From contig NZ_WVNW01000009.1 in assembly GCF_013179285.1 (NCBI RefSeq), positions 1-47,195 of the forward strand: DNA of 47,195 nt, given 5' to 3'. This stretch comes from Roseobacter sp. HKCCD6576-2 (GTDB lineage Bacteria; Pseudomonadota; Alphaproteobacteria; Rhodobacterales; Rhodobacteraceae). Both the position numbers and the translations under genes were made by a program. Below the pieces are notes generated by a model. The model was given only the letters and a program-made list of their open reading frames with translations, ran no database searches and was not told where the DNA came from. Positions 12,611 to 47,195 of this stretch are shown here, piece by piece (within the stretch, counting starts at the first letter, position 1; each line of letters begins with the position of its first letter).

Positions 12611-12890
12611 GTCTAGTATTTTCGGTCCGGCACTCTGAGTCTAAGATCGGATAGCACGTGAGTTAACTGGATGCAGTTGCGAGCGTCAAATCTGAACCTT
12701 CTACAACGCGAGCAGGCCGCATTCATCTCTATAAGGCCAGACGCCCGATCAGAAATATCTCAACCTGTCGCGACTAGTCCCGGTCGCGACATAGCCGAGC
12801 GGAAAATCCACTTAAAACGGATCGAAACAGCTTAGACAAACGAGCCACCTTGTAAGTTAACAAACCCAGGAAATAGGAAAAAACGGACTA
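12611..12890. other. Intergenic, leader of the lipoprotein gene
   Basis: No coding frame of note. It holds the upstream region of the lipoprotein gene, ending in an AGGAAATAGGAAA-type ribosome binding site. No clear promoter motif found. Confidence 0.35.
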
Positions 12891-13713: not shown

Positions 13714-14394
13714 TTACGCCCGGTTCTTGAAGCGCCAGCTTTCGTTTCCGGTTTCGACGATTTCACAATGATGCGTGAGGCGGTCGAGGAGCGCAGTGGT
13801 TATCTTGGCGTCGCCGAAGGCCAGGTTGGTGGTGACGATGATCGAAGTGCGCTCGTAGAGCTTGCTGATCAGGTAGAACAGGAGATAACCCAACTCGTCG
13901 AGGGTCAGGAGGTCGAGGCGGGAGATTAGGTCTGCGGTGCGGCCCTGCCGCTTGGCGCGAGCTTCGGCGTCGAGCGTGTTCATCAGATCGACGACGTTGA
14001 AGAATCGCCCCCGGCGTCCGGCCCGGATACAGGCCAGGGCGATACTGACGGCGAGATTGATCTTACCGGTTCCAGTGCCGCCGATCAGCACGAGATTGCG
14101 CTGATGGTTGAGGAAGTCGCCGTTGGCCAGGTCGCGGATCAGGGTCTCGTTGACCTCCGCCGCTTCGAAGTCGAACTCTTCGATTTCCTTGGCGAGCGGC
14201 AGCTTGGCGATGGTCATCTGATATTTGACCGATCTGGCCTGCTTCTCCCTGATCTCGGCGGTTCAGCAGATCGCCGATGATCTGTTGGGGTTCATGCTGG
14301 CGTTTGATGGCGGTGGTCGGTGTCTTATCATAGGCCGCCCTCATGCCGTAGAGCTTCAGCTGGCCTATTGCTCCACCACGTCCGAGCGTTTCAT
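13714..14394 (-). pseudogene. istB: IS21 helper ATPase IstB, degenerate
   Basis: Minus-strand pieces rebuild one IstB: MKRSDVVEQ at 14394 with AAGGAG upstream, KLYGMRAAYD and [12 protein letters not shown] in a second frame, then [20 protein letters not shown] to the C-terminus SWRFKNRA. One A is missing (GAGCAAATAGG became GAGCAATAGG) and one C is extra before GCCGAGATC. The Walker A reads GGTGTGKIN where GGTGTGKTH is usual, and two short stretches (after ELGYL and after NLAFG) are deleted. istA is absent except for a possible C-terminal scrap near 14400-14475. Confidence 0.82.
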
Positions 14395-16467: not shown

Positions 16468-19400
16468 TTGAACAAATGCGCTGTCTTGATGAACGGTCGA
16501 CATACAGAGTTTCTATCTGGATGCCTGTCTATCGATCTGGAGGTGGATCCCAGGACAGCCAAAGTCTTTGCTTTCGCGGCAGTTCGAAGCGATGACCAAC
16601 CGGCTTTGAAATCGGGAACCGCCTCGCTTGAGCAAAACCTTGACCGCCTGGAAGACGCCATCGCTGGCATCTCGCATCCGATTGGCCACAATTTCCTGCG
16701 CCATGATATGGAACACCTGATCGCTGCCAGACCGCGGCTGGCTCAGATCATGCAGGCACCAATTGATACATTGTGGCTGAACCCGCTGGCCTTCCCACGC
16801 AATCCCTACCACCATCTGGTTAAACACTATCAGGACGGGCGGTTGGCTGCAGGGCATATCAACGACCCCGAACTCGATGCCCGGCTTGTCTTTGAAGCGT
16901 TGGCCAATCAGCTCGACGCATTTCAAGAGCTTACCAAAAGCGAACCAGGTGCGCTTGCAGCCTATCACTACCTTACAACACGAATGGGACAGTCGAGCGG
17001 GTTTGATGCCGTTTTCAAGTACCTGCGGAAAGCCAATTGCCCACCGCAGGATGAGGCCGTCGCTACTATCCGTCGGATGCTGGACGGTCGGGCTTGTGGC
17101 AAACGGATCGAACAGACTCTGGGGCGGCTTAGCAATCCTCGAAATGGGTGGCCTATGGCCTATGCGCTATCCTGGATCACCGTAGCGGGCGGGGACTCCG
17201 TCATGCCGCCGTGGGTCCGGGCGCAGTTCCGCGAGGCGTCGCTGATTGTCCGGCATCTCAGAGATACATCCTGCAAAGATCCCAACTGCCAGTGGTGTGC
17301 GGAACAGAATGACCCAGTCCGCGCGTTGAACAGGTGGTTTGGGTTTGACAGTTTTCGCTCCCAGCCTGTTGACCCGGATGGTCGTCCCTTGCAGGAGCGC
17401 ATTGTCGATGAAGCTATGTCCGGAACCAGCCTGCTGGGCATCCTGCCGACTGGCACCGGAAAGTCCGTTTGCTATCAGGTACCCGCGCTGTCCCGATTCG
17501 ATAAGATTGGGGCATTGACCGTAGTCATATCACCGTTGGTCGCCCTGATGGCTGATCAGGTGCAAGGGATGGAACGGGCAGGTATTTCTTGTTCCGTTAC
17601 CGTCAATGGTCAGATGTCCATGCCAGAACGGCAGGATGCGCTGGACAAGGTCCGCATGGGAGATGCGGGCATTCTGATCATCTCGCCCGAGCAATTGCGC
17701 AGTACATCCATCCGCTCGGCTCTTTCACAGCGCGAGATCGGCCTGTGGGCCATTGACGAAGCGCACTGCGTTTCGAAATGGGGTCATGATTTCAGGCCGG
17801 ATTACAGGTATCTGGGACGGTTCATTAAAGAGTTCTCCGGCGACCAGTCCCCTCCCCCGATCCTCTGCCTCACGGCGACAGCCAAACCGGAAGTGGTTGC
17901 GGACATCGTAGAGCATTTCAAGTCTCGTGCTGGGGTCCAGTTGCTCTCCTTTGATGGCGGGGCATCGCGAAAAAACCTGACATTCGATGTCAGGCATACG
18001 GCCAAGAACAGCAAACTGACCGATGTCTTGAACGTAATAGAAGAGTTGCTGCCATCAGAGGGTCGATCCGGTGCCGTGGTCTATTGCGCGACGCGCAGGG
18101 AGACCGAGCGCGTTGCTGAGTTTCTGAAGTCGCAGGGCATGGACGCAGCACATTTCCACGCCGGACTTGGGTCCGATGACAAACATGACGTTCAAGAACG
18201 GTTCCGGGTCGGAGACCTGCGGGTGATCGCCGCCACCAATGCCTTCGGCATGGGAATCGACAAACCCGATATCCGGCTGGTGGTTCATTCCGACATTCCG
18301 GGATCGCTGGAAAACTACCTGCAGGAGGCCGGGCGCGCCGGACGCGACCGGGAAGACGCAGATTGTGTGTTGCTTTTCGCCGGGGATGACGTTGAACGCC
18401 AGTTCCGGTTGTCGGCCAGCTCTCGCCTTGCTCGGCACGAAATCGGGGCCATCCTGAAAGCGCTGCGTTGGATTGACGAACGCACGCGCAAGACCGGCAA
18501 GATTGTCGCCACCGCGGGAGAGATCGTCCGGTCTGAAAACGATCGCGAGTTCGAGCGGGACAGTGCAACAGATGACACACGGGTCAAGACAGCGGTGTCT
18601 TGGCTTGAGGAAGCAACGCTTGTCTCACGCGAAGAGAACCGTGTCCGGATTTTCGCGTCCTGCCTGAGGGTCCACACAATAGACGAGGCAAAACAACGGC
18701 TCGGGCGCGCGGACATTACTCAAACGCATCGCAAAGCACTATTGGCCATTGTCCAACATCTGATGTCAACGCCTGCAGATGAAGGAGTCTCCACGGACCA
18801 ACTCTGCGGCGTTAGCGGATTGACACCGGGCGCCTTGCCAAAGGCGATGGCCGATCTTGAAAGCTTTGACATCGCGCGCAACGACGTTGCGATGACTGTG
18901 TTCATCCATGTCGGTGTGGCGCAATCCTCTTTTGCGCGCCTCACACAGGCCACAAATCTGGAACGGGATTTGATCGCGTCGATGCGAGAGTTGGCACCGG
19001 ATGCCGACAAAGAGATCCCAATGCCACTGAACCTGTCTGAAACCTGCCAGCGTCTGCGCGATCAGGACCACGCCGATGCCCGCCCCGATGTTATCGACAA
19101 ACTGATCCGGGGTATAGCTCGGGATGGCAAGGGGCAGGATGGTGGCACCGGCAATATCCGGCTGCGCAAGATCAGCCGGAATACCTTAAACGTTACGCGG
19201 ATAAGATCATGGGATGTCATTGCCCAGACAGCTGAACTTAGGTGGCAAGCGGCCGGGATTCTGCTGAAGTATCTAACGGGGCGGCTCGACAAAGGCGCGC
19301 GCGGCAAAGACCTGCAGGTTGAATCCACTGTGGGGGAACTATTGGCGCAGATCGCACAGGATGCCATTCTGAAATCCAGCGGTTTGCGCGACATCACCAA

Positions 19401-34223: not shown

Positions 34224-35450
34224 TTAAGCGATGGGTATGTTCTTGAGGTGTTTCTCGATGGCATCACGAACATCGGCGCTCATTGGCAAGTGTGACTTTT
34301 GCTGGCTCCAATGCTCATGAAACAGATCGACGGTTTCGCGGGCTGTATCGAGTACCAGCCTGGAAGGAAGCGCGGCCTTTGATGCCAGATGGCTCAGCTC
34401 ATCTTCGGAAAAGTCACCAAACGCCCTGCTGCGGCTTACATTCAATGCGAATTGATCGCCTGGTATGTAGGGTACGGTCGAAACGAAATCATAAGCAGGT
34501 GCAAGCGCAGAATTTACGCGATCTGGATAGATCAATGACCAGTTCTTAAGGTGCATATCCCCGTTGCCGATCAGCACATTGAAAGTCAGGCGGCGAACGA
34601 ATTCTGCAATATCTACATCACTGGTTTCGGCGGCGAGCACTTGTGCAATGTTACGCATGCTGGCGTTCTTGTACTTGTCTTCCGCATAGACACCGTAGAC
34701 CTGCGCGAAGTCCTCAATATGGAGTGCGCTGCCATCATCCAGGCGGTCGAAGCGTTCTATTATGAAGGCCGTGCTGCCGAACTTATCGATGCCTTCGGGG
34801 ATATTCTGAATAGAAGCCACATCGACCAAGTCGATGGCTGGAACATTAATTCCGACCATGCTTGCAAGCTGCATCATCGAGAACTCGTTTTCGGGCACCC
34901 CTTCGTATTCCCGTGAGGGTAATTTGACGATCCAACCGCCGCCGATACCGGAAGCTGGGATCGTCAGGCTCCCGCTAGCATCACTCACAGCTGAGAATTT
35001 GAGCTGAACACCAGCCAAGGAGAACCGCAGCACATTCTCTTTGGGATGATCGCCATGGCGATCATCGTCATGATGATCATCATGATCGGGCGGCCAAGCT
35101 TCGCCATCCGTTGGCGTTACGGTGATAGCGCCGGGAAGGTCTTTGCCTAGCGCCCAGAGAAGAAAGAACTCGCGCTCAGGGTTCACTCCAGCCCTCTCTG
35201 CAAGGTACTGGCGCATATTTCCTTCGGGCAGAAGATTGGAAAAGAACGGCATCAGACGTTTTTGGTAGGGCCGGAACTCGGTCAGCAAAGTGCCAAACTC
35301 GTCCTTGAAGCCGAGACCCAATGTCGGGCGGATGCCTGCGTCGATATACTCATCCGTAAAGGCAAAAATCGTCCTGTCACCACCCACATTGGTAAGGGTG
35401 CCTATCTGCTCTCCATAGAGTCGAACTTCCAGAACAGAAACGTCAGCCAT
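34224..35450 (-). CDS. hipA: HipA-family Ser/Thr kinase toxin
   Basis: 408 residues from MADVSVLEV (35450; GGAGG five bases upstream). The N-subdomain (VLEVRLYGEQIGTLTN) is followed by RFSLAGVQLKFS, whose Ser corresponds to the autophosphorylated Ser of HipA. LIGNGDMHLKNWSL is the catalytic loop (G-N-x-D-x-H-x-K-N) and APAYDFVST the Mg-binding Asp. HipA toxins phosphorylate aminoacyl-tRNA synthetases. Just before the autophosphorylation loop sits an insert rich in His and Asp (HDDHHDDDRHGDH, about residues 125-137). It overlaps hipB by 8 bases. Intact. Confidence 0.93.
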   Translation of the reverse strand: MADVSVLEVRLYGEQIGTLTNVGGDRTIFAFTDEYIDAGIRPTLGLGFKDEFGTLLTEFRPYQKRLMPFFSNLLPEGNMRQYLAERAGVNPEREFFLLWALGKDLPGAITVTPTDGEAWPPDHDDHHDDDRHGDHPKENVLRFSLAGVQLKFSAVSDASGSLTIPASGIGGGWIVKLPSREYEGVPENEFSMMQLASMVGINVPAIDLVDVASIQNIPEGIDKFGSTAFIIERFDRLDDGSALHIEDFAQVYGVYAEDKYKNASMRNIAQVLAAETSDVDIAEFVRRLTFNVLIGNGDMHLKNWSLIYPDRVNSALAPAYDFVSTVPYIPGDQFALNVSRSRAFGDFSEDELSHLASKAALPSRLVLDTARETVDLFHEHWSQQKSHLPMSADVRDAIEKHLKNIPIA

Positions 35451-36033
35451 CATCACCTCCATCAAGGCGGTAGGCTGGCCGGGCGGTTTCAGTGTCCATT
35501 TCATCATCGATTGAATGCGCTACTCGGTTGCGCAGGGTGGCCATCTGCCTTGCGACCTCTTCGATAGAGTACAGCCCTTCGCTCTTCTTGAAGGCTTCGA
35601 GTGTCTTGCGAATGTTGCGCAGCGCATCGGTATCGCTCAGCATCGGTTGTAGGTGCTGTAGCTCACGGAAGCGGCGCAGCAAAGGGTCTAACTCCCCTCG
35701 CGCAGTGTTCACTTGCGGCAGAGAGTCCAAAAGCTTCTTGATGTTTGAAATTTCTTTGCGTGTTTGCGCGGATGTCGTTGGCTTTTCGCTTGTTGAGCGC
35801 GTGATGGATTTGAGCGCTGGCAGAGCCTTGCGCGGGACTAGCGCGATCTCCAGATCAAGAGCGCGCGTGATGTCGGCCAGGCTGGAGATGCGCAGATCAA
35901 CGCCGCCGCTTTCGATCTTGGAGATATGAGACTGCGGCACGCCAGCGCGCTTGCTCAGCTCACGCTGGCTCAGCCCTTTCCTCTCGCGAGCTGCCTTGAG
36001 GGTGGCAGCTATGTCTTCAGTCACGTAGTTCAT
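35443..36033 (-). CDS. hipB: HipB-type XRE antitoxin with long C-terminal extension
   Basis: 196 residues. The first ~65 hold an XRE helix-turn-helix (LSQRELSKRAGVPQSHISKI). About 130 further residues (EISNIKKLLDSLPQVN, RFRELQHLQPML, DALRNIRKTLEAFKKSE) are helical and could dimerise or contact HipA; the usual HipB is under 110 residues. It precedes hipA and probably represses the operon at a large palindrome upstream. A fusion or a variant antitoxin subfamily would both fit. Confidence 0.86.
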   Translation of the reverse strand: MNYVTEDIAATLKAARERKGLSQRELSKRAGVPQSHISKIESGGVDLRISSLADITRALDLEIALVPRKALPALKSITRSTSEKPTTSAQTRKEISNIKKLLDSLPQVNTARGELDPLLRRFRELQHLQPMLSDTDALRNIRKTLEAFKKSEGLYSIEEVARQMATLRNRVAHSIDDEMDTETARPAYRLDGGDDG

Positions 36034-36115
36034 CTCGATCTATCTTTCTGCATCAAAGCGGCTCTTTGATATATTTTAGAATATCATGTCTCACAAGAGT
36101 GTAGCAAGAATATAA

Positions 36116-36160
36116 TATATAAAAGTAGATCATATAGTGTTCATGATCTACTTTTATATA
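36116..36160. promoter_or_regulatory. 18-bp-arm palindrome upstream of hipBA
   Basis: TATATAAAAGTAGATCAT (36116-36133) and its exact complement (36143-36160) flank a 9-base loop, 83 bases upstream of hipB. A possible leftward promoter (TTGCTA, then TATTCT, or TTGTGA, then TATATC) lies between it and the gene. Probably the HipB operator, or a hairpin in the transcript. Confidence 0.65.
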
Positions 36161-36586
36161 TCTCAGGAGAAGAGTGCCGCCCCGATGGGCAGCGTGTCTT
36201 CCTATCGCCCAGTCTTTCGCGCTCGGCAGTAGTGTCCTAACGATTGGTGTAATTCCCGCCGGTAGCGCGGGGCGCTTGGCGGCCACGTTTGTTCCGACGT
36301 TGGTTTGATCTGGATGTTGCAGCAAAATCTACCGCAAATACGAAGGGTAGTAAGGGCACCATCGAGAAAATCCCTGCAGCGTCAGGTGTGCGAAAAATGG
36401 GCCCCTACAGGGGCAGTAGTGCGACACGTCACCGGGTTTATAACCCTTTGAAGCGTCTCACAAAACATCTGACGCCAAGTAGCCTGAGTGGCGTCTGAAC
36501 GAAGCGAGAGCGCCCTTCCCCCGCGTTTCCTGGGATGTTCCCAGCGATTGCGTGATTTTTTCCTAGATCGGAGAAGGGGTCATACG
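36161..36586. other. Intergenic between hipBA and the recombinases
   Basis: No convincing gene. It probably holds the recombinase promoter and, if the recombinases belong to an integrated element, one attachment site; no duplicated core was found by eye. A GAAGGGG-like ribosome binding site ends the segment. Confidence 0.4.
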
Positions 36587-37902
36587 GTGCGACAAACAGA
36601 CAGAAAAACCATAGCGCGTTCCGCTGTCATCCAGCCAGAGAGGAACACACAGAAACAGGGCCAAGACCAGGTACATCGGGACGACATTGTTCCTCAACTC
36701 GGTCGGCGTATTCGAGGCAGCCGAGAGACATGGGTTGTTCATTGCCCACGCCAAGGCAAGACTGCGAAGATCACCCTTGGCGCTTGTGCAACCATCCCAG
36801 TCGCGCGGGCGCGGACAATGGCTCTGGACCTTCTTGAGGAGGCACCAACCCACCCAGCCCTCTGCGGGAAACGACCCTGGCAGCATTTGCCCAAATCTTT
36901 CTTGATGATTGCGCGGGCCGTTGGAAGCCCAAAACCCTCCACTCACACAGGCACGCAGTGTCACGACATATTTTGCCCGGCCTGGGAGGTATGCAGGTTG
37001 GAAAAATCGAGCGCGCTGATGTGACGGCGTGGTTCAACAAAATGGAAATGTCGAAAGGTGGCCGTAACCGCGCTTTGTCGGTTCTGTCGTCGCTGTTTAT
37101 CCATGCGGAAATTCGCGGACTTCGACCGCCCGGATCGAACCCCTGTGCCGGAATGCGCAGACACGACACGCGCTTCCAGGCGCGCTATCTTGACGTTGAT
37201 GAATATGCGGCACTTGGACGGGCATTTACCAAGGCCTCTGTAGCATCCCCGATGGCCGTCCATGTCCTTCGGTTTTGCGCTTTAACGGGCTGCCGGAAAT
37301 CCGAAGCGTTGATGCTGCGTTGGTCAATGATTGACGGCAACAGAGCGGCGCTTCCGGACTCCAAAAGCGGGCCAAAGTCGATTTGGTTGGGCAAGCCCGT
37401 TCGAAAGCTCATAGCGACTGTTCCAAAGACTGGCGAGTGGGTCTTCGAGATTGATGGTGAGCCAGTATGTCCAAAGATGCTGCAAAGGGTATGGAACGAC
37501 ATCAGATCGGATTTAGGGATACCAACCTTCCGCATCCACGATCTGCGACACAGCTTCGCCTCTGTCGCTGTCAGCCTCGGATACGACCTTCTCATAGTCG
37601 GCGGGTTGCTCGGCCACGCCGATAAGGGCTCCACCGCAGGCTATGCGCATCTCAATACACGCGACGTTGCAGCGGCCTCTGCGCGGGTTGGTAAGCACTT
37701 CGCCAAAGTCATAGCCGGAAAGCAGCCGAAGGAGGCCTGCAAGCCCGGTAGAAGCGGTTCCAGGCCTGATAAGCTGATAGCGGCCTTCCTGAGATCAAAA
37801 GACACTCTGACGACGTTCTGTGCCAGCCGTGGGTTGGAACCGGAGACGTTCCGTCGCGATGTCGAGAACTGGCGGTCTGTTCATGCGAGGTTGGCCCAAT
37901 GA
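36587..37902 (+). pseudogene. Tyrosine recombinase 1, frameshifted
   Basis: Two frames form one integrase. From GTG at 36587 (AAGGGG upstream): an arm-binding N-terminal domain (DIVPQLGRRIRGSRETWVV, ITLGACATIPVARARTMALD). Near 36840-36850 the frame shifts by one base; the continuation has TLAAFAQIFLDDCAGRW, HAVSRHILPGLG, and a complete catalytic domain: TGCRKSEALMLRW (Arg), FRIHDLRHSF (H-x-x-R), GLLGHADKGSTAGYAHL (His, Tyr). About 60 extra residues follow the Tyr. Its stop overlaps the next recombinase as ATGA. If the frameshift is an assembly slip, the gene is intact. Confidence 0.8.
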
Positions 37903-39038
37903 GGACGGAAGCACTTTTAACCCCGCATATGCTCGCCTCGCTCAAACCCAGAACGAAGGATTATGCGATCTTCGATGCAGGCTGCCCTACCCTCGCAATA
38001 CGTGTGCAACCCAGTGGCGCAAAGTCATGGGTCACTTGGGATCGGTCGTCGGGCAAATCGCGGCGCGTCACACTTGGACGCTTAAACGAATTGACGCTCG
38101 AGAAAGCGCGAGGTGCATTGCTGTCGTATAACGCCACGCTCGCCGTAACACCGATCGAAAGGTGCATGACCTTCGCGGAACTGGTCCGCATATTTATGAG
38201 CGCCAAAAGGAAGGTCTATAGACCAGACACTATCGACAGCATGCAATCCTATCTCAAGACCCAGTTGTTGCCAGCGTTTGGGAAGACACGGATGGATCGG
38301 ATCACGACGCCTGAGGTCGCCGACTGGTTCCATGGGTATTCCCGGACAATGCCCGGCGGGGCAAACCAAGCGCTTCTACACTTCACGACCATCTTAAACT
38401 GGGGAAAGGAAAACGGGCACATTCCGTTTTTGATGCCGAACCCCGCCAGCCCCCTGCGCAAAAACCGCCGTGTCGCGCGGGGGCAGATGTTAAATAGCAG
38501 CGACTTGAACAGATTGTTCAACGTGCTTGCCTCTCCGACTTCTCGAAACAAAGAAGCTTCCAGTGTGATCGAGCTGGTATTGCTGACGGGTTGTCGTTCC
38601 GGCGAAATCGTGCGGCTGCGTTGGGACGAAGTAAGGCCAACGCGCTTGGAACTTGCTCAGACGAAAACAGGCGCGCGAACGGTCTTCCTCAATGATCTTG
38701 CTATCGAACGGTTAAAAGAACGGCGGCGAACACGATCATCAACGTTCGTCTTTCCATCTCCCTATGATCCAACCAAACCGCGCACTGCGCCCACCTGCGC
38801 CTGGCAGACCATCAAGGAGAAAGCAGGCCTGCCGCCAACGTTGAGGCTGCACGACCTACGGCACACATATGCCAGCCACGCCATACTTGGGGGAGAAAGC
38901 CTCTACATCACTGGCAAATTGCTGGGGCATCATGATGCGCAAAGCACCGAGCGCTACGCCCATCTGTCAGGGGATGCATTGGCGGCAGCATCTGGAAAAG
39001 TCTCTTCGCGGATCGAAAAGCTGCTGTCAGGTGGTTGA
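37899..39038 (+). CDS. Tyrosine recombinase 2
   Basis: 379 residues, complete: N-terminal arm-binding-type domain (CPTLAIRVQPSGAKSWVTW), core-binding domain (TFAELVRIFMSAKRKVYRPD), and catalytic domain TGCRSGEIVRLRWDE, RLHDLRHTYASHA, GKLLGHHDAQSTERYAHL. It resembles integrases of genomic islands and starts inside the stop of the preceding recombinase (ATGA). The two proteins differ in sequence, so this is not a simple recent duplication. Confidence 0.93.
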   Translation: MRTEALLTPHMLASLKPRTKDYAIFDAGCPTLAIRVQPSGAKSWVTWDRSSGKSRRVTLGRLNELTLEKARGALLSYNATLAVTPIERCMTFAELVRIFMSAKRKVYRPDTIDSMQSYLKTQLLPAFGKTRMDRITTPEVADWFHGYSRTMPGGANQALLHFTTILNWGKENGHIPFLMPNPASPLRKNRRVARGQMLNSSDLNRLFNVLASPTSRNKEASSVIELVLLTGCRSGEIVRLRWDEVRPTRLELAQTKTGARTVFLNDLAIERLKERRRTRSSTFVFPSPYDPTKPRTAPTCAWQTIKEKAGLPPTLRLHDLRHTYASHAILGGESLYITGKLLGHHDAQSTERYAHLSGDALAAASGKVSSRIEKLLSGG

Positions 39039-39943
39039 TGGGGCCAGTTCGCTCTTCAGGGCCAACGCGGAGACCGCCAAGAGTCTCAAGCGGTGGCCCG
39101 GCACTCTCCATAAATCGCGCAACAGAGGATGACTCCAGACTATCCTTTCGCAGCGATCGGCTTCAACAGTCGAGACGTGGGACCTTCTTGCCGTTCGCTG
39201 CATCTGTAAAGTGAACAGGGCTTTCGCACCGCGACCCACACACCGTGCGGGTTCTGTTGAAGAACTTGACGCAACCGGCGATCCGATCATCGTCGGAGTG
39301 TCACCATCCTGTCTTTATTCATGATGTTGGCGTTCGAAATAGAAGCCTGCCTTACAGACGATGATGACGCGACTATTCGAGCGAATATAGGAACGATGCA
39401 GCAAATGCGAATCTCAATAGACGCGCTCAAGTCTCAGCTAAGAGCCGAGTTACGTAAATTGGTGATGCCGTATCGGTGTAAGCCCAACACAACGACGTTT
39501 GAATGGGATCATTTAGGGTACTGACGGGTCACGAATTAACACTCTCTCGTCTGATATCGCTTCTATGGTAGCTGACACGGCCCAAGGATAGCCGATACCT
39601 ATCAGTTCATAGTATATCGATATTTATCAATTCAGTAACTTTATCCTACGAAGTGGGCACAGACACGTTGGGTGGATACTTCTTTTCACGTGCCGCGCCC
39701 CTTCTTCCGGAGGGGTAAATGGAATGAAGTTAATTAGGACCTGGGATGGAAAAGAGAGTACTGCTTTCGCGCTGTAACATTTGCAAAACAAAGTTGGGTC
39801 GATATCTCGTGAGAGGGAAATCTCAAGTGCGCAGGTATTTGAAAATGAAAACCCACCGAACTTGCGATGAAAAATCACTAATATACGCAATGAATTCAGT
39901 ATTCATTCTTGCAGATCGAATGACCCTCAGATTCATCATTCGC
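39039..39943. other. AT-rich spacer before the biosynthetic cluster
   Basis: About 0.9 kb with no confident gene. One frame (39321-39524 plus, 67 aa) is listed separately. GC content drops from about 39520 onward. Several short inverted repeats are visible near its right end, and the cluster promoter lies beyond. Confidence 0.4.
39321..39524 (+). CDS. Small hypothetical protein (67 aa)
   Basis: Not recognised. An acidic N-terminal half (EIEACLTDDDDATIRANIG) followed by a basic helix (ALKSQLRAELRKLVMPYRC). No clear ribosome binding site. The frame follows the recombinases by 280 bases in the same direction. It may be chance. Confidence 0.3.
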   Translation: MMLAFEIEACLTDDDDATIRANIGTMQQMRISIDALKSQLRAELRKLVMPYRCKPNTTTFEWDHLGY

Positions 39944-39976
39944 AATTTGAGTGTGTAAATTAAACCCACTCAAATT
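39944..39976. promoter_or_regulatory. Perfect 10-bp inverted repeat upstream of the cluster
   Basis: AATTTGAGTG (39944-39953) and CACTCAAATT (39967-39976) with a 13-base gap. It ends at the -35 of the putative cluster promoter, so it may be an operator or a terminator for leftover upstream transcription. Confidence 0.5.
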
Positions 39977-40015
39977 CACCTATATACGTGTACAAGGTAT
40001 AGATTTCCACCTTGT
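39975..40015 (+). promoter_or_regulatory. Putative promoter/operator of the aminoacyl-carrier cluster
   Basis: TTCACC (39975-39980), a 17-base spacer and TATAGA (39998-40003) resemble a sigma-70 promoter about 40 bases before the first start codon. A second inverted repeat, ACAAGGT/ACCTTGT (39992-39998 and 40009-40015), overlaps the -10 and likely start site. Repression by an unlinked regulator is plausible, as no regulator gene lies in the cluster. Confidence 0.45.
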
Positions 40016-40044
40016 TGTTTCGCATGCAATGATGAAGGTTTTTC

Positions 40045-41199
40045 ATGCTGGATACTCCAAACACAGACACACTTCTAAACGAGATCGAGGTGTTGCGCGG
40101 TAGGAACCGCTCTACAGCAGATTGCGTCAAACATCTGATACGCATAGGAGCGCACGCCGCGCCTATAAAAGAGACAGATTTTAATGCCATGCGCTACCGC
40201 GAGATCGCCGCTCTTCTCGGCGAGATAAACCCATCTCTGGCTTTGAGCTTCACCATGCACCTTTATACGGTCTGGGGGCTACATCGGCACCGGCATAGCG
40301 TTTTGCAGCCAGTCTTACAGGAGATCGTCGAGCAGGGCGCATTGACAGGATCCCTGAACGAGCCAGGTCTATATTTCACATCACCGGGTCAACTAGATCT
40401 GGACACATACCCGATCCGAGCGCGCAAGGTTGACGCCGGATATATCGTTAATGGCACTAAGAAATTCGTTTCCTTGGAGCCATTCGTCTCGTTCCTGCCG
40501 GTATACTGCGCACTTGAGGGCTACCAAGGTGACGACTTGGGCCTGGTTTGCCTGATGTTGCGAAAATCCAGTGCTGGAGTAAGTGTGCTTGATGACTGGA
40601 ACACAGTAGCCATGCAGGCCACGGCCAGCAACTCGGTTGCTTTTGATGGCGTATTTTGTCCTGACGAGATGGTGATCTGTGATGAAACCACCCCTATTTC
40701 ATCGCTCGCGTTGCAGGGCTATCTCTTCCGGTTTTCTGTAAGTTCGGTCTATTTGGGTATTGCGCGGCAAGTGATGCAGCATAGCATCGAATCCGCAGGA
40801 TCCAAACGTCCTCCCGGCGGCAATCTTCCCTTGGCACGTTACCCTGGAGTTCAGTTCTCGACTGCAGAAATGATCATCAGCCTAGATACCATGGAAGCTC
40901 AGATGGATCGCTTCACCAAGGTGCTTGATGACTTCGTGTCCGGCGATCCGAACGCCGCGAGGGTCATTTCTCGCATCAGCCTTGTAACCAAGGAAGTGGT
41001 CGCCCGAGAGAGCGAAAGAATCGTGAATGCCGCGATGAAAATCGACGGCATAAGCAGCCTGTCATCTGCCAACCCGTTATCTCGTATCTATACGGATGCG
41101 AAAGCAGCCCAATTTCATCCGCCGCAGCGCGATGTCGCCTACGAGCTTCTGGCTAAGGAAGCGCTTGGTGTCATTTCTCTCAAGAACAGGTGGCTCTAA
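40045..41199 (+). CDS. Acyl-CoA-dehydrogenase-like flavoprotein
   Basis: 384 residues, full length for the family. GSLNEPG sits where the FAD-contacting loop usually is, GYIVNGTKKFVSLEP is the middle beta-domain signature, and KAAQFHPPQRDVAYELL with EALG is the C-terminal helical end. Family members oxidise the alpha-beta bond of acyl thioesters; in carrier-protein pathways related enzymes act on aminoacyl- or acyl-carrier substrates. As first gene of the cluster it may desaturate the carrier-bound aminoacyl group. It lies one base before the ligase gene. GAAGG precedes its start. The catalytic Glu was not assigned. Confidence 0.87.
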   Translation: MLDTPNTDTLLNEIEVLRGRNRSTADCVKHLIRIGAHAAPIKETDFNAMRYREIAALLGEINPSLALSFTMHLYTVWGLHRHRHSVLQPVLQEIVEQGALTGSLNEPGLYFTSPGQLDLDTYPIRARKVDAGYIVNGTKKFVSLEPFVSFLPVYCALEGYQGDDLGLVCLMLRKSSAGVSVLDDWNTVAMQATASNSVAFDGVFCPDEMVICDETTPISSLALQGYLFRFSVSSVYLGIARQVMQHSIESAGSKRPPGGNLPLARYPGVQFSTAEMIISLDTMEAQMDRFTKVLDDFVSGDPNAARVISRISLVTKEVVARESERIVNAAMKIDGISSLSSANPLSRIYTDAKAAQFHPPQRDVAYELLAKEALGVISLKNRWL

Positions 41200-41200
41200 G

Positions 41201-42361
41201 ATGAACATGATCGATTCTCCCTCCGACTCCGCTTCGAACTCCGTGCCGCGCCAGTGTGTCGTTGCTCTGCCCGAGCGCATCAAAGGTGGGCGCCTCTCCG
41301 AGTTGCTGGAACGCGTTCCGTACCTAAGCGAACAGGTCTTGCAGGTGGCTTACGACCAGGCGCGTCACGAGGTCAGGTTTACTCACGCGGACACCGATGA
41401 CGCCCGCCTGTCCCAGGCAGTACACGAGCTGGTGGATGTACTTCTTACCGCTCGAATCTTGGCCCAGAAAGAAGAGCGTAGCAATCTGGAACAACAACCC
41501 ACACCGTCCCTTGACCACAGTTTTTCGGCAGATGTTTTTTCGGGAAGAGTTGGCCTTGCAGCGATGGACGCGCTGGATCGCGCCATCTGTGAAATAGCAG
41601 AGCGAAATGGTGCCGGTCTGCGACGCTATCCGTCAGTTTATCAAGCTAAGACGATGCAGTGCTGCGGCTATCACAAAAACTTCCCACAAAACGTCTTCGG
41701 TGTAACACGCATTCCCCACGACTATTCCGTAATCCGTCAAATTCGTGACAGTGATAGCATCGACATCGATCCCTCTTTGTTTGTGAGCGATGGGGCCTAT
41801 TTGCAACCCTGCATCTGCTATCACTGCTACGAAGAATGGCGTGGCGCTAAGATCGAAAATGCCCTTCTTAGCTCTGCCGGACGCTGTTTCCGGCATGAGA
41901 TTCGCTGGAAGCTAGATGACTTTCGCCGCAACGAGTTCACGATGCGCGAAATCGCCTTTGTCGGTGATGCCGAGTGGGTCGAGCTGCGCAGGCTCGGGAT
42001 CATGCAAGAGGTGTGGGATCTGTTCTGTGATCTTGGGCTGGGCGGCCGGATCGTTACCGCTCGTGACCCGTTCTTCCACTATGATGACATGATGACTAAA
42101 GGTGCCGTTCAGTTAATGGCAGATGCCAAGTACGAGCTTGAGTTCGTAACTACGGATCAACGCGCGTCATCCATTGCGTCATTCAACAACTGCCAAGACA
42201 GCTTGACTGCTAAGTTCGACATCACTGGCCCGGATGGGGACAAGGACCGCCACTCAGGTTGCGTCGCTTTCGGGTTGGATCGCTGGTGCACGTCGCTGTT
42301 CACACGCCACGGCACAGATCATAACGCATGGCCAAAAACCCTGCGTCGTTTTCTTAGCTGA
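41201..42361 (+). CDS. Amino acid:[carrier protein] ligase (aaRS-like)
   Basis: 386 residues. The last ~250 are the catalytic core of a class II aminoacyl-tRNA synthetase of the SerRS type: CFRHEIR (motif 2, residues 229-235) and GCVAFGLDR (motif 3, 353-361). It lacks a tRNA-binding coiled coil. Such stand-alone cores activate a small amino acid as aminoacyl-AMP and charge it onto the phosphopantetheine of a carrier protein, and a carrier gene follows directly. Its zinc/substrate region has unusual Cys (TMQCCGYHKN, PCICYHCYEEW, FNNCQD). The N-terminal ~110 residues are an extra domain. The amino acid specificity cannot be read. Confidence 0.9.
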   Translation: MNMIDSPSDSASNSVPRQCVVALPERIKGGRLSELLERVPYLSEQVLQVAYDQARHEVRFTHADTDDARLSQAVHELVDVLLTARILAQKEERSNLEQQPTPSLDHSFSADVFSGRVGLAAMDALDRAICEIAERNGAGLRRYPSVYQAKTMQCCGYHKNFPQNVFGVTRIPHDYSVIRQIRDSDSIDIDPSLFVSDGAYLQPCICYHCYEEWRGAKIENALLSSAGRCFRHEIRWKLDDFRRNEFTMREIAFVGDAEWVELRRLGIMQEVWDLFCDLGLGGRIVTARDPFFHYDDMMTKGAVQLMADAKYELEFVTTDQRASSIASFNNCQDSLTAKFDITGPDGDKDRHSGCVAFGLDRWCTSLFTRHGTDHNAWPKTLRRFLS

Positions 42362-42395
42362 ACTCTCACACTCCTTTCGAGAAAAAGGAAATTCC

Positions 42396-42650
42396 ATGTC
42401 ACAAGACATTGAAGCGACTGTTTTAACCGTGATCAACCGCCTATCCAACGGGGACGCGCCCGTTGAACTGGGAACACCTCTGTCGTCGCTGGGCATCAAC
42501 TCGGTCAAGATCATGCAAATCATCACCCAGTTGGAACTGGCACTGGATTTCGAGTTAGAGGAAGAACACCTGTCGATGGCGCATTTCCAGACAGGACAGC
42601 ATATAGTCCGGCTTCTTCAGGACAAATATCATGACACAACAGCCGCATGA
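42396..42650 (+). CDS. Acyl/aminoacyl carrier protein
   Basis: 84 residues from MSQDIEATVL, with AAAAAGGAA upstream. SSLGINSVKIM is the phosphopantetheine attachment motif (Ser36), and the acidic helices ELEEEHLSM are typical of carrier proteins. Stand-alone, not part of an NRPS. Presumably primed by the PPTase at the cluster end and charged by the adjacent ligase. Its last codons overlap the formyltransferase start as ATGA. Confidence 0.93.
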   Translation: MSQDIEATVLTVINRLSNGDAPVELGTPLSSLGINSVKIMQIITQLELALDFELEEEHLSMAHFQTGQHIVRLLQDKYHDTTAA

Positions 42651-43498
42651 ACTTGCGGGTTGCACTGATCTGCGGACGGCAGGGTCTTACTCTGTTATCT
42701 GCGCTGCCTGAGATTCTGAAAGGACACACGCTGCGGTCCTTTCTATCGCCTGCTGCATGGCGAGACGCACAAGCTCAAGATTCGGGGTTGGAACTGGGAA
42801 GCGTATGTTTACCTCTCCCGGAAACAGGCACCTTTGAAGATACGCTGGCCGGTTTTCGGCCGGACGTTATTCTGGTGATGTCCTACCTGGGCAAACTGCC
42901 TCCACACTTGGCGCGCTATACGCGGTTCGGCATGGTCAACATGCACCCGTCTCTCTTGCCACAGTATCGTGGGGCAGCCCCCATTTTCCATGCTATCCGG
43001 GATGGTGCGGCTGTCAGTGGACTTACATATCACTACCTGAACGATGACTTTGATGCTGGCCCCATCATTGCGCAGTTTCCAATAAAGATCCAAACACAGG
43101 ATTGTGCGCAATCCCTGTGGCTGAAGATCAATCGTAGGCTACTAACCACCTTGCCGGACCTTCTAGAATGCATTGAGACTTGGGCCGAACGCGCCACACC
43201 TCAGGATGGGGCCTGTGCCACTTCTGCGCCTGCGCCCGACCTTGCGCTATGCCGCTTGTCACCCACGCATACTACCATGCGAAACCTGCGCATTATTCGG
43301 GCGTGTACAACGATCGGCGGTGCGGTGCTGGAGGATCAGGCCCATGGTACAATTCGCGTGACAACGGCGACGCCTGATCTTCACGAGGCATTAGCTTCCG
43401 GCAACAACCAACCCCTTTCTTTGCAAACGCGAGATGGCAGGCTCTTTCTAACTTCGGTGCACCCCATATCACCAGTTGCATCGATGGCGCTGATTTAA
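42647..43498 (+). CDS. Formyltransferase (Fmt-like)
   Basis: 283 residues of the formyltransferase family that uses 10-formyl-tetrahydrofolate. VNMHPSLLPQYRGAAPI with N98 and H100, and DDFDAGPI with D136, form the catalytic Asn-His-Asp triad. The C-terminal ~80 residues resemble the beta-barrel of Met-tRNA formyltransferase. A normal fmt would be linked to def; here it is coupled to a carrier protein, so it most likely formylates the amino group of a carrier-bound aminoacyl moiety or the product. Confidence 0.9.
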   Translation: MNLRVALICGRQGLTLLSALPEILKGHTLRSFLSPAAWRDAQAQDSGLELGSVCLPLPETGTFEDTLAGFRPDVILVMSYLGKLPPHLARYTRFGMVNMHPSLLPQYRGAAPIFHAIRDGAAVSGLTYHYLNDDFDAGPIIAQFPIKIQTQDCAQSLWLKINRRLLTTLPDLLECIETWAERATPQDGACATSAPAPDLALCRLSPTHTTMRNLRIIRACTTIGGAVLEDQAHGTIRVTTATPDLHEALASGNNQPLSLQTRDGRLFLTSVHPISPVASMALI

Positions 43499-43518
43499 GA
43501 CGTTTTCAGGGGCTCAAT

Positions 43519-44472
43519 ATGCTTCACCTTCCCCAACCTATTTCCTATGATGAAAGACTGTTCGATCGGCGGTTTCTGGATTGCTGGCGACGGCAAGCGC
43601 TGGTGTTCATGGAGCAGGCTGGTGCTGATATCGATGCTTTGCTTTACAGTGCCTTTGTCTCTTCTGACCAGATTTTCGACGAAACACTATGCGGTGAGGC
43701 GCCCAAATACGCCTTTCCCACAGACTGCCTGAATGATGAAGGGCTGGCGCTGATCGGGTGGCAGCAGACGATCAGCAAATGCAACTCCTTCGATGAAGCG
43801 CGCGCCACCATTGAAAAAGCCCTGAATGACAGCGGATTTGCGGTTCTGATGGGCAGTGTCTTCTACTTCGCCCACAACCCGGAATACAGGCAAGAACACC
43901 TCAATCATTCCATCGTTCTGACTGACCAGGCCCCGGACGGCTCGTGGGTGCTTCACGATGATGATCCGATGACAGCCCTGCGCCCCTACCGTTACCCAGA
44001 CCACGACGTGGCTGCATTCTTTGACAACAACGGCACGCGGGCAGTACGTGTGTTTCGCGCCATCTCCTCGCCCACTCCTGACGAAATCAACAGTCGCGCC
44101 AGGTCACTATTCACCCGACGCACGAGCCAGCATCGCGATGACATGCGTTTGCTGTCCGACATTCGCGCCATCGCGACCGATCCCCACCGTCGCCTTCATC
44201 AAGTAGCGCGCCATCTGCGCGAGAGTTTCTCACTGCTGTCCGGGTCACGCAGCCTGTCAGCGCGTTTCCTTCGTTGTGTAGTCAGGGACCAGGACACGGC
44301 GACCCTGATGGACGCGTGCGCCGAACAAGCCCTTGTCCTTCGCAACCTCATGATGAAGGTAGAGTACGGTGGGCGGCTCAACCTTGACCGGCTGGAAACG
44401 CGATGCCTTGAGTTGCGTGGCATGGAAAGCAGTCTTCTTGAGCGGCTTACTATGGAAAGGCATCCCGCATGA
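43519..44472 (+). CDS. BtrH-like/papain-fold protein, putative acyltransferase
   Basis: 317 residues. The N-terminal half resembles the BtrH_N/C39-like cysteine-peptidase fold: FLDCWRRQALVFMEQAG offers Cys22, LNHSIVLTD offers His130 and WVLHDDDP an Asp, a possible Cys-His-Asp triad. In butirosin synthesis BtrH transfers an aminoacyl group from a carrier protein to an acceptor, so this is a candidate release/transfer enzyme. The C-terminal half is helical and of unknown role. Similarity is by pattern only. AGGGG precedes the start, and the stop overlaps the MFS start (ATGA). Confidence 0.6.
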   Translation: MLHLPQPISYDERLFDRRFLDCWRRQALVFMEQAGADIDALLYSAFVSSDQIFDETLCGEAPKYAFPTDCLNDEGLALIGWQQTISKCNSFDEARATIEKALNDSGFAVLMGSVFYFAHNPEYRQEHLNHSIVLTDQAPDGSWVLHDDDPMTALRPYRYPDHDVAAFFDNNGTRAVRVFRAISSPTPDEINSRARSLFTRRTSQHRDDMRLLSDIRAIATDPHRRLHQVARHLRESFSLLSGSRSLSARFLRCVVRDQDTATLMDACAEQALVLRNLMMKVEYGGRLNLDRLETRCLELRGMESSLLERLTMERHPA

Positions 44473-45695
44473 TCGGTTACCTACCTCTCCTACGTCAGCC
44501 ACGGGTTGCAGCATTTTTCGCCAACCAGTTGCTTGCAAGCTTTGGTGACGGATTACTAGGTGTTTTTGCTACCATTGTCGCTTTGCGTTATACGTCCGAT
44601 CCAGGCCTGCTTGGATTAGCAGCCTTCTACGTTGCCTTCCCTCGCGGCGTGTTCGGGCTTGTGGGCGGAGTCATAGCAGATGCCGTGGGGCGTCGCAGTT
44701 TACTCATCGCCTGCGATCTGACGCGAGCGGTCTGCGTGCTCGCGCTGGCAATAATGGCCTGGACGTCCGAGCTGGCTCTCTGGGTTTTACTGCTACCTGT
44801 AGCCTTAGCAGCCACAACGTACGGCGTCTCCAAACCTGCCTCAAAGGCTATAATCCCGTCTCTCGTCAGCGAGGCACAGCTGCTGCAGACAAACAGCTTG
44901 ATCCATGGCTTTCAGTGGCCGTCCTACTTCCTTGGGGCGGGCGTCATGGGAGGAATCTTTGCCATCACCGACAGCATTTCCGTGTCTGCACTCATTGTTG
45001 CACTAGTGTTTTTTTTCGCCACGCCCAGCCTGTTCGCCCTGCCCTCGGTGCCTGCCGTCAATCCTAATTTGCGGCTTGGTCGGGTGTGGCCAGATCTGCG
45101 GGACTCGGCACATACTTTGCGAGGGCACCGTCTTCTGTTCCTGCGTGTGACAAGCTACTTCGGCTATACAGCGGCTTGGCGTGGTATGATCTACGTCGTG
45201 CTGCCGCTCGCGCTTATCGAGGTCTTCGATCTACCCTCCGAAATGTTCGGAGCCCTCATGTTGGCCAGCGGCACGGCAGAATTGATTGCCGCCCTTCGAT
45301 TGGGCAACCGGCATAACCAGGTCGGAACACTCGCCTTGGCCTTTGTAGCCGAGGCTGTTCTGGCCGCAGCCGCTGCAGTCATTTTGATGTCAGCCGTCCT
45401 TCCGTTACCAGCATTTGCGATGGCCATGCTGGCGGCGGCCCTCGTGGGTGCCTCAGCAGCGGTTGCAGATATTCCGATCGTCACGACGATCCAGACCACT
45501 CTTGACGATGCACATAGGGGGCGGGCCTTCAGCCTGTGGAATGCAATCGGAGCCTTGGGTGGCAGTGCCGGCGTACTCCTGATAGGTGCACTGCTTCAAA
45601 TCTGCGGGCTGTCTCTAGGGCTCTTGCTGCTTGGTTCCGGGTTGCTAGGAATTAGTCTATGGTTTCGCAGCTTGCAACCCGCAGCCTATGATTAA
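44469..45695 (+). CDS. MFS transporter, probable exporter
   Basis: 408 residues with about twelve hydrophobic helices and the loop motif GGVIADAVGRRSLLIA between helices 2 and 3, characteristic of the MFS. Resembles the MFS_3/enterobactin-exporter-like group. Inner membrane. Coupled to the preceding gene by ATGA, so it likely exports the product and may give self-protection. Confidence 0.9.
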   Translation: MIGYLPLLRQPRVAAFFANQLLASFGDGLLGVFATIVALRYTSDPGLLGLAAFYVAFPRGVFGLVGGVIADAVGRRSLLIACDLTRAVCVLALAIMAWTSELALWVLLLPVALAATTYGVSKPASKAIIPSLVSEAQLLQTNSLIHGFQWPSYFLGAGVMGGIFAITDSISVSALIVALVFFFATPSLFALPSVPAVNPNLRLGRVWPDLRDSAHTLRGHRLLFLRVTSYFGYTAAWRGMIYVVLPLALIEVFDLPSEMFGALMLASGTAELIAALRLGNRHNQVGTLALAFVAEAVLAAAAAVILMSAVLPLPAFAMAMLAAALVGASAAVADIPIVTTIQTTLDDAHRGRAFSLWNAIGALGGSAGVLLIGALLQICGLSLGLLLLGSGLLGISLWFRSLQPAAYD

Positions 45696-45706
45696 GAAAG
45701 CCCTTC

Positions 45707-46318
45707 ATGAAGACGCTACGAAACCTTGATGACCTACGGGTACTAATCCCGGAACCCGCGCCGACAACTGCACTCAAAATCCGCGATCACTTGACACCGC
45801 GTATGGCAGAGTTCATCGCGAGCAGTCCGCTTTGTCTAATCTCGACCATTGACCGGGACGGCTTTCCATCGGTCTCGCCACGCGGCGACCAGCCAGCCGT
45901 CGCAACGGTTCAGGGGGCAAATATCTTGGACTTGCCGGAACGCAAAGGCAATCGCCTGATATTTTCGCTGCAAAACATTCTCGAACGTCCCCGCATCGGG
46001 GTGTTGTTCCTACAGCCGAACGTGTCTGAAACCTTGCGTGTACACGGATCGGCCGACATATTAGCGGATCCGGCTCTGGCTTCAGACCTGCGTTCTGACA
46101 CACAGCCTGCACTCTGCGTGATCCGGCTCGCTGTGCATTCGGCCTATTTCCACTGCGGCAAGTCCTTGATGCGCGCTCGAATGTGGCACCCGCAGGATTG
46201 GCCCGAACCAAAGGCCGTCTCGATGGGGCGCGAAATCGCGGAAGGCGCGCGGCTTGGCGAGGATGCTGCCGCCGCGTTGGAAGAGGGTGTACAAGAACGC
46301 TATGTCACAGACCTCTGA
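45707..46318 (+). CDS. PPOX-class FMN-binding oxidoreductase
   Basis: 203 residues of the pyridoxamine-5-phosphate-oxidase-like split-barrel fold, MSMEG_1061-like: FIASSPLCLISTIDRDGFPS, VSPRGDQPAVATV, DLPERKGNRLIFSLQNIL, IGVLFLQPN, and AYFHCGKSLMRARMW. Such proteins bind FMN, heme or F420 and catalyse redox steps on small molecules. It may perform a late oxidation in the pathway. It lies 11 bases after the MFS gene and overlaps the PPTase gene by 17 bases. Confidence 0.88.
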   Translation: MKTLRNLDDLRVLIPEPAPTTALKIRDHLTPRMAEFIASSPLCLISTIDRDGFPSVSPRGDQPAVATVQGANILDLPERKGNRLIFSLQNILERPRIGVLFLQPNVSETLRVHGSADILADPALASDLRSDTQPALCVIRLAVHSAYFHCGKSLMRARMWHPQDWPEPKAVSMGREIAEGARLGEDAAAALEEGVQERYVTDL

Positions 46319-46988
46319 TGAGGCGAACTTCCAATCCTGCCTTGCCTTGGGACTGGTACGCCTGTCACACAGCACCACCGAACGCAGTTCACCATGTACG
46401 GCCCTGTACCAATGGCTGCCAGAGGGTGACGTTCGGCAAGCCGAATGTAACCATGCAGGCCATCGGCGTATCGAATTCCTGACCGGCCGGTTTATTCTGC
46501 GCAGGATCATGCAATGCCGCTTTGGCCTGAAAGAAGTTTGCATTAAGACATTGTCATGTGGGCAACCTCATTTGCCGGATCATCCGATGAGTATCAGCAT
46601 CAGCCATTCAAGCGGTTGGGTGGTGGCAGGAGCCCTTTCGCATGGGCGTCTTGGACTCGATGTCGAAGGTCCTCGCAAGAGATTCTGCCTGCCGCGTCGG
46701 CTCAAAGAAAGATACTGCGCGGCGGGCGTATCACAGGAGTTCGTAGCACGCCATTGGCCACTGATCGAAGCACAGGCAAAATGCACAGGAACTTCCTTAG
46801 GACTATTGCTGCAACGTCCCGAACTTTGCCTGTCAATAGACAAGAAAGCACGCCGCGGCTGGTTTACATCCGACCAATACCTAATGCGATACATCAAACT
46901 GCCAGGAGCACAACTGGCGTTATGCTTAGATTCGATGGTGCACAAAGTTCATCTCGACCGCGTAGTCCTACCTAGCTCCACCCACTGA
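46302..46988 (+). CDS. 4'-phosphopantetheinyl transferase (Sfp-type)
   Basis: 228 residues from MSQTSDEAN, the start inside the preceding gene. FLTGRFILRRIM, MSISISHSSGWVVAGAL and LGLDVEG are PPTase motifs, the last carrying the Mg-binding Asp. The third motif reads WPLIEAQAK, where W-x-x-K-E-A-x-x-K is usual, so Ile replaces the first Lys. It should convert the apo carrier protein to its holo form. Location in the cluster supports a dedicated role. The substitution might lower activity or alter selectivity. Confidence 0.83.
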   Translation: MSQTSDEANFQSCLALGLVRLSHSTTERSSPCTALYQWLPEGDVRQAECNHAGHRRIEFLTGRFILRRIMQCRFGLKEVCIKTLSCGQPHLPDHPMSISISHSSGWVVAGALSHGRLGLDVEGPRKRFCLPRRLKERYCAAGVSQEFVARHWPLIEAQAKCTGTSLGLLLQRPELCLSIDKKARRGWFTSDQYLMRYIKLPGAQLALCLDSMVHKVHLDRVVLPSSTH

Positions 46989-47195
46989 TAGAGATGCTGG
47001 CTGTGATCAAAGCCGGCTGAGCGGATAAGCATAAAGAGTTCCAGCCCGAGACTGAGGACTTGATGCTTTTTAGGGTATCAAGCCGCCGTCAGGAAGGTGG
47101 GGGTGGGGACAGGGCACCGCTTACCCGTTAAAGCCGAATATGACCCAGCCCCCTGATCCGGGCCGCTCAGGTGTAGAATCCGTTCCTGTTTTGCT
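46989..47195. other. Right edge, no gene recognised
   Basis: Contains GCTGGCT/AGCCGGC (46994-47013), a possible short stem after the cluster, and GC-rich sequence with no frame of note. It may border another mobile element beyond the window. Confidence 0.35.

Follow-up and report, generated by a model that had tools for sequence, protein, structure and literature searches.

Paralogues of the seryl-tRNA synthetase (SerRS) that charge carrier proteins have been described next to genes for an acyl carrier protein (ACP), a Rossmann-fold monooxygenase/dehydrogenase, an uncharacterised conserved protein, and a glycosidase, and in the consulted part of that paper the purpose of these SerRS relatives was only proposed (PMC2922099, 2010). 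We here describe an eight-gene operon (positions 40045-46988, plus strand; genes A to H, labelled in operon order) in Roseobacter sp. HKCCD6576-2, on contig NZ_WVNW01000009.1, which makes up the whole window of 47,195 nucleotides. The operon appears to encode a carrier-protein biosynthesis of the known kind that is primed by an aminoacyl-tRNA synthetase (aaRS)-like ligase, in a gene combination that looks new, and it offers the carrier-charging ligase a small pathway with its own carrier, phosphopantetheinyl transferase (PPTase), tailoring, transfer, and export genes. We tentatively read it, at somewhat less than an even chance, as a pathway free of nonribosomal peptide synthetases (NRPS) that would make an N-formyl-N-hydroxy-aminoacyl group, which would be transferred and then exported.

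The rhizobial cassette of ACP, acyl-CoA dehydrogenase (ACAD), Bll0957-type ligase, DUF1839, and GH2 genes (loci L018, L019, and L024) has in common with the window an aaRS-like ligase, one carrier, and one ACAD-type protein per operon, as well as the Cys-Glu-Cys residues. However, the window ligase and ACAD fell outside the cassette clades, no DUF1839 or GH2 gene was present among the eight genes, and the window adds a formyltransferase, a BtrH-like protein, a major facilitator superfamily (MFS) transporter, a PPOX protein, and a PPTase. The score of its ligase against PRK07080 (2.7e-33, 115 bits) did not reach the equivalog cut-off of 357. The butirosin side-chain pathway, as described in the consulted parts of PMC2922099 and PMC10318531, likewise has a stand-alone carrier (BtrI) and a BtrH-type transferase, but its ligase is of another type, and no ATP-grasp, BtrK-like decarboxylase or aminoglycoside gene was seen among the window's eight. 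In the aminomalonyl-ACP supply of the zwittermicin type (PMC6395733, in part; loci L009, L012, and L013), the ligase of L009 is related to B and adjoins a BtrH-domain protein. An assignment of the operon to this supply route was rejected, since no 3-hydroxyacyl dehydrogenase, acyltransferase or polyketide synthase (PKS) is present among the eight genes and A lacks the catalytic Glu. The chalkophomycin genes ChmGHIJ are described as including an ACAD-type flavin enzyme proposed to N-hydroxylate a carrier-bound amino acid (PMC10849742, preprint, in part); unlike the window, they belong to an NRPS pathway with ChmJ described as proline-adenylating, and A is likened to ChmG by description. The gvg cluster of 4-formylaminooxyvinylglycine (FVG) has a formyltransferase, gvgI, en route to an amino-acid-type product, and was set aside as well: in the consulted part of PMC8064604 a carbamoyltransferase was among the core genes, the word 'carrier' was absent from the main text, and a ligase, ACAD or BtrH protein was not found. 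Among the matches listed for open PubMed Central (PMC) papers, a pathway with this gene set was not found described; the first-pass annotation had known of none with the exact combination. The group predicted for the window pathway resembles hadacidin. Hadacidin is N-formyl-N-hydroxyglycine, a fungal product, and a bacterial carrier route to it was not found in the search of open PMC papers.

All eight genes lie on the plus strand with intergenic gaps from A to H of +1, +34, -4, +20, -4, +11, and -17 bases, so that the single strand and the range of spacings given by the first-pass annotation (-17 to +34 bases) were borne out by the coordinates. Gene A (40045-41199) encodes an ACAD-type flavoprotein (PF08028, PF00441, and PDB matches), probably an aminoacyl-carrier N-oxygenase. 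Gene B (41201-42361) encodes a predicted class II aaRS-like amino acid:carrier-protein ligase, assigned from PRK07080, an alignment with 3mey, and conserved residues; its start at 41201 was preferred because the ATG there comes one base past the stop of A, and a longer frame from 41096 is less likely. Gene C (42396-42650) encodes a stand-alone carrier protein (PF00550, 2e-5) with the phosphopantetheine site Ser36 within GINSVK; three PP-binding matches occur in the genome, C among them. Gene C is followed by gene D (42647-43498), for an Fmt-type formyltransferase (PF00551, 2.4e-23; N98, H100, D136, and the SLLP motif present), and gene E (43519-44472), for a BtrH-like, putatively papain-type acyltransferase recognised by the BtrH_N match of a relative and by candidate Cys, His, and Asp residues. 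Gene F (44469-45695) encodes an MFS exporter (PF07690, 1.1e-21), gene G (45707-46318) an MSMEG_1061-family PPOX-type flavoprotein (TIGR04025, 180 bits; cut-off 170) and possible electron donor for A, and gene H (46302-46988) an Sfp-type PPTase (PF17837, 8e-8; the ACPS domain PF01648 appeared below its cut-off only). Family searches agreed with the earlier labels for seven of the eight genes, E being the exception. All eight frames are open, the residues expected of the ligase, carrier, and formyltransferase are in place, and E has candidate papain-type residues. Because the family matches agree and the key residues of these three proteins are present, the eight genes are judged from their sequences to form a real operon. 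At the level of sequence, this supports the earlier description, in which a stand-alone carrier adjoins an aaRS-like ligase and comes with a PPTase to prime it, a BtrH-type transferase, a formyltransferase, and an exporter.

The reactions and their order are predictions, and so are the part played by G and the nature of the amino acid, acceptor, and product; the pathway would run as follows. H would attach phosphopantetheine to the carrier C, and B would adenylate an amino acid and load C with it. A would then N-hydroxylate the amino acid on the carrier, with reduced flavin possibly supplied by G, and D would formylate the same nitrogen with formyl-tetrahydrofolate as the donor. The hadacidin-like, metal-binding N-formyl-N-hydroxy-aminoacyl group would be moved onto an acceptor by E, a BtrH-like protein of the papain type, and the product would be exported by F. 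In hydroxamate siderophores, an N-hydroxylase and a formyltransferase build formyl-hydroxyornithine. A and D, as a pair of this kind, could turn an amino acid on the carrier into the N-formyl-N-hydroxy-aminoacyl group, and we put the chance that both act on the same nitrogen at nearly even. The N-H-D triad and the SLLP motif presumably have their roles in formyltransferase function, and since N98, H100, D136, and SLLP are present, D should use formyl-tetrahydrofolate. G may feed reduced flavin to A. If N-hydroxylation and formylation do occur here, the operon would represent a new route to metal-binding groups of the hydroxamate type, and its enzymes would be a portable set for their synthesis.

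Residues 103-385 of B aligned at 6.8e-23 with Bll0957, a carrier-protein ligase of known structure (3mey), and PF00587 was seen below its cut-off (1.7e-5). The triad C206, E233, and C354, for which we assume a zinc role in ligases of this type, and the class II arginines R231 and R361 were invariant in all 13 aligned ligases. B very probably charges C, the carrier encoded by the adjacent gene, with an amino acid. The position C331 of the window ligase is also Cys in L002/L003, L009, and L041, Ile in L010, and His in the other aligned ligases; a prediction of the amino acid from this position was given up, as no tie to any amino acid was found. In a tree of 17 ligases, B grouped with the Bacillus pair L002/L003, Alkalihalophilus L009, and L041 (support 95/93), with L010 next (100/100), and stood apart from the rhizobial cassette ligases. 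B is 40% identical to the L009 ligase over 351 residues and 31% identical to that of L041. The surroundings of these relatives differ: the L009 relative lies on a plasmid inside a zwittermicin-like PKS cluster; the L002 cluster has inositol-phosphate-synthase-like, ATP-grasp, decarboxylase, and AsnB-like genes (several labels assigned by eye); the ligase of L011, a Priestia plasmid, occurs with BtrH-domain, carrier, ATP-grasp, and MurF genes; and other relatives occur in Streptomyces clusters. Two ligases in genomes of the window's family (L042, 4728-5942; L043, 6762-8042) each adjoin a protein that by eye is an MBOAT-acyltransferase-like membrane protein. In a phage record from human faeces (MT835751.1), the stretch 13533-14318 encodes a protein with 28% identity to the core of the ligase.

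In ACADs the catalytic Glu is found at one of two places, in an EGT motif close to the C-terminus or in a WER motif of an earlier helix. In A these two positions are occupied by P359 and F228, respectively, neither of which is acidic, and in the alignment both positions were likewise non-acidic in its clade members from L041, L002, and L003. Among the ACADs of the aminomalonyl-type clusters, that of L009 keeps the Glu of EGT and those of L012 and L013 keep the Glu of WER. The possibly dehydrogenated product of the first-pass annotation is not supported. When A was compared with the PDB by phmmer, the best matches were 5gj7/5z8t, followed by DnmZ and 3m9v/4kcf (which we take to be KijD3), with a nitrososynthase lower; 5gj7/5z8t, DnmZ, and 3m9v/4kcf ranked above the other entries named as CoA dehydrogenases among the 15 matches listed. 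The entries 5gj7/5z8t were deposited as 'acyl-CoA dehydrogenase type 2 domain protein', and a PMC search for these two codes returned nothing. By phmmer, the nearest characterised PDB relatives of A include amino-sugar N-oxygenases. In the consulted part of the chalkophomycin preprint, ChmG is an ACAD-superfamily N-oxygenase acting on a prolyl-carrier protein, with Met replacing the Glu of prolyl oxidases (PMC10849742), and a review describes group D flavin monooxygenases as having an ACAD domain and as including N-hydroxylases, some of the group acting on carrier-tethered substrates (PMC6165268, in part). As an ACAD-type sequence that has neither Glu, A fits group D in this respect. We consider A to be probably an oxygenase rather than a dehydrogenase, and gene A would then be an example of a likely acyl-CoA dehydrogenase annotation on a protein that is probably not one.

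The BtrH label of the first-pass annotation finds support through a relative of E. E has 30% identity over 302 residues with L014, a plasmid protein of Vibrio halioticoli, and L014 matched BtrH_N (PF14399) at 30.8 bits, slightly over the cut-off of 29.7; the other two relatives scored 23.6 (L015) and 20.3 bits (L016), and E itself gave no Pfam match. Moreover, the E group aligned with the BtrH-like groups of L002/L003 and L009/L011 at hhalign probabilities of 91 and 94, respectively. The candidate catalytic residues of E are Cys22, His127 or His130, and Asp147 or Asp148; Cys22 is common to the four window-group proteins and L002/L003, and H130 is invariant in eight rows. The E profile gave three weak PDB matches, the best at 0.0039 and none with a papain-fold name. 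In the plasmid collection, the E subfamily was represented by three records, from Vibrio, Nonomuraea, and Xenorhabdus. In the Vibrio record, the E relative is followed by a relative of F with 31% identity over 385 residues, and the cluster also has an AMP-binding enzyme, a carrier, a Lys/Orn N-monooxygenase, an aminotransferase, and two FAD enzymes, which gives a second BtrH-like gene alongside an N-hydroxylase and an exporter. A BtrH-family protein adjoins the ligase in L009 (above the cut-off) and in L011 (28.6 bits, just below), and in L002 one scoring 20.1 bits is found approximately 5 kb from the ligase; in the annotated stretches of L010, L012, L013, L020, L021, and L022, BtrH was not named beside the ligase. 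In L009 the BtrH-domain gene stands immediately ahead of the aaRS-like ligase (11079-13092). The DUF1839 protein, which adjoins the ligase in L018, L019, and L024, aligned with the BtrH-like group at an hhalign probability of 34% over 230 columns, with the Cys and one of two His aligned; on this weak likeness it is a possible transferase for the rhizobial cassette. Two BtrH-looking proteins of L041 (350 and 326 aa) reached only 4% and 13% against the window group and are not claimed.

The recurrence of the genes was followed in 12 of the 88 plasmid records matching the ligase, 2 of the 52 matching A, and all three matching E; the records L023 and L025, which had no annotation, were compared by BLAST only. 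The A and B pair recurs in two Bacillus records (L002 and L003) and in L041, and the E and F pair recurs in Vibrio. A and B are thus found together in three lineages with differing neighbours, since they were seen in the window, in Bacillus, and in L041. The closest A relative seen is that of L041 (43% identity over 333 residues), and that of Bacillus has 32% identity. A single clade of the ACAD tree (97/96) took in the proteins of the window, L041, L002, and L003, and within it those of the window and L041 were sisters (99/98); the cassette ACADs and the aminomalonyl dehydrogenases fell outside it. The letter make-up of the L041 sequence was flagged. Both trees place the window, L041, and L002/L003 in one supported clade, which for the ligase takes in L009 too. 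Besides its A relative, the L041 cluster has a ligase, two carriers (one found by Pfam and one by eye), a PhyH enzyme, a glycosyltransferase, an M29 peptidase, and a carbamoyltransferase. In the Bacillus genome no PP-binding match was nearer to the ligase than about 13 kb, and the nearest ones are on the other strand. The full eight-gene set occurred in no other locus examined and is apparently unique so far, because no relative of D, G or H was seen in 21 loci. Co-conservation, whose lack the first-pass annotation had named among the grounds for refuting its pathway, is thus absent for the full set and present for its core, since A and B recur across phyla. It is conceivable, though doubtful, that two portable gene pairs, one for oxidase and ligase (seen in Bacillus and L041 too) and one for transferase and exporter (seen in Vibrio too), have come together here in a hadacidin-type acyl-donor system whose tailoring enzymes are exchangeable, adding a formyl group here and a carbamoyl group in L041.

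Rarity was counted in samples of genomes rather than in the whole collection. The ligase was found at E values up to 1e-25 in 2 of 394 genomes of the family, namely the window's own and one distant copy, and at 1e-10 in 6 of 195 relatives, its own included. Gene E at 1e-15 was found in 1 of 398 genomes of the phylum sample, which was its own. With the best five or six candidates per genome scored, the A-clade profile at 1e-60 recovered 1 of 367 genomes in the class sample, again its own, and at 1e-70 it recovered 1 of 299 relatives of genome G986, which was G986 itself. In addition, the ligase at 1e-40 was found in 4 of 298 relatives of a Bacillus genome, with that genome included.

The absence of the Glu bears directly on a reading in line with the first-pass annotation, in which A is an unusual dehydrogenase and a dehydro-aminoacyl or imino-acyl carrier intermediate is N-formylated and transferred. 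Both Glu positions are non-acidic in A and in the three aligned clade members, and we regard this reading as quite unlikely, even though A has ACAD-type domains (PF00441, 1.6e-8), the A profile finds an entry for a short-chain acyl-CoA dehydrogenase at 3.9e-21, and the ACADs of the aminomalonyl and prolyl-carrier pathways are dehydrogenases according to the consulted parts of PMC6395733 and PMC10849742. Group D enzymes are mainly aromatic hydroxylases as described (PMC6165268, in part), as would suit a pathway in which A and D act on different atoms, with A hydroxylating a carbon or the acceptor amine and D formylating an ordinary amine, to give a formyl-aminoacyl conjugate without a hydroxamate. 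It would be suited too by L041, where the closest A occurs with a PhyH enzyme and a carbamoyltransferase and with no formyltransferase relative. However, the PDB entries nearest to A include several N-oxygenases, and the pairing of an N-hydroxylase with a formyltransferase is known from the hydroxamate siderophores; we hold the separate-atom pathway to be unlikely, though with an appreciable share of the probability. A third possibility follows valanimycin: A would N-hydroxylate a free amine, E would move the aminoacyl group from C onto the hydroxylamine, and D would add a formyl group, the carrier taking the place of valanimycin's seryl-tRNA. Valanimycin biosynthesis is described as using a SerRS paralogue and a transferase (PMC2922099, in part), and isobutylamine N-monooxygenase is tabulated as a group D enzyme (PMC6165268, in part), but none of the eight genes matched a GNAT-type transferase such as VlmA and none resembles an N-N-forming enzyme, and we regard a valanimycin-like route as improbable.

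The operon could also be an incomplete fragment of a larger cluster that was cut by a repeated element, with the eight genes alone making nothing. The contig stops at 47195, 207 bases past H, and its terminal 55 bases (47141-47195) have six further full copies in the genome and two further copies of 52 bases; the assembly broke at this point because these bases are a multi-copy repeat, and the cluster may continue past it. Two tandem tyrosine recombinases lie just upstream (36958-37902 and 37899-39038, plus strand, family scan, 4-base overlap), and no acceptor-making gene is visible, which would fit a fragment as well. Nevertheless, the eight open frames, the tight spacings, and the presence of the checked key residues speak against it, and a non-functional fragment is in our view improbable.

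The reading of the operon as an N-formyl-N-hydroxy-aminoacyl pathway is itself weakened by several observations, the missing acceptor gene among them. Relatives of D, G, and H were not found at 1e-3 in the open frames of the 21 loci, including L041, L002, and L003, and L041, flagged as a long branch in the ligase tree, carries a carbamoyltransferase where no relative of the formyltransferase was found. The scores of A for PF08028 (2.1e-10) and PF00441 are almost equal. The rhizobial cassette ACADs also lack the Glu at the aligned positions (the earlier position was gapped in one alignment), so that its loss is not specific to the A clade. With a three-row A profile, 3m9v/4kcf (6.8e-23) came only narrowly ahead of the short-chain acyl-CoA dehydrogenase 1jqi, and DnmZ and the nitrososynthase 3mxl failed to reach 1e-20. 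The NCBIfam matches of A were undecided and all far under their cut-offs (SfnB, 51.5 bits; prolyl-carrier dehydrogenase, 39.6 bits; DszC, 38.5 bits). E had no Pfam match at E values up to 0.1, and G, for which the PDB gave no match at 0.001, is a PPOX protein and not a recognised flavin reductase. The AlphaFold models of A and E, each built from a three-row alignment, had a mean predicted local distance difference test score of 43 and 36, respectively, too poor for use. The recurrence of E with F in favour of the N-formyl-N-hydroxy-aminoacyl pathway was judged to balance the lack of relatives of D, G, and H and the small margin of the A profile against it.

The recombinase pair (36958-39038) is probably the border of a mobile island and would lie outside the pathway, and the stretch 36400-46988 had no close match in the plasmid collection. 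Fifteen other open reading frames of the window were scanned for families, and no further pathway gene was apparent among them. They included integrases, a transposase, Fic, HipA, a helicase fusion, a phosphoesterase, a flavocytochrome-type FAD protein, a cytochrome c, ThiM, and ThiE, together with a dipeptidase-like protein, a carboxypeptidase-regulatory-like domain protein, and two frames without a match. The helicase fusion (16468-21708) is a protein of 1746 residues in which DEAD/DEAH and UvrD helicase domains are joined; the Fic-domain gene is at 6282-7472 and the HipA-like gene at 34224-35507. A thiamine pyrophosphate (TPP) riboswitch (3385-3473, minus strand) stands ahead of the ThiM- and ThiE-like genes (1917-3473). 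A perfect 19-base inverted repeat with a 9-base loop was seen at 36115-36161. The best 10 matches of the stretch with IS110 and IS5 elements (8923-11212) showed 80-88% identity to plasmids of Celeribacter, Phaeobacter, and Dinoroseobacter, in keeping with, though short of proof for, the Rhodobacteraceae of the first-pass annotation; among all 177 matching records, Rhizobium was the most frequent.

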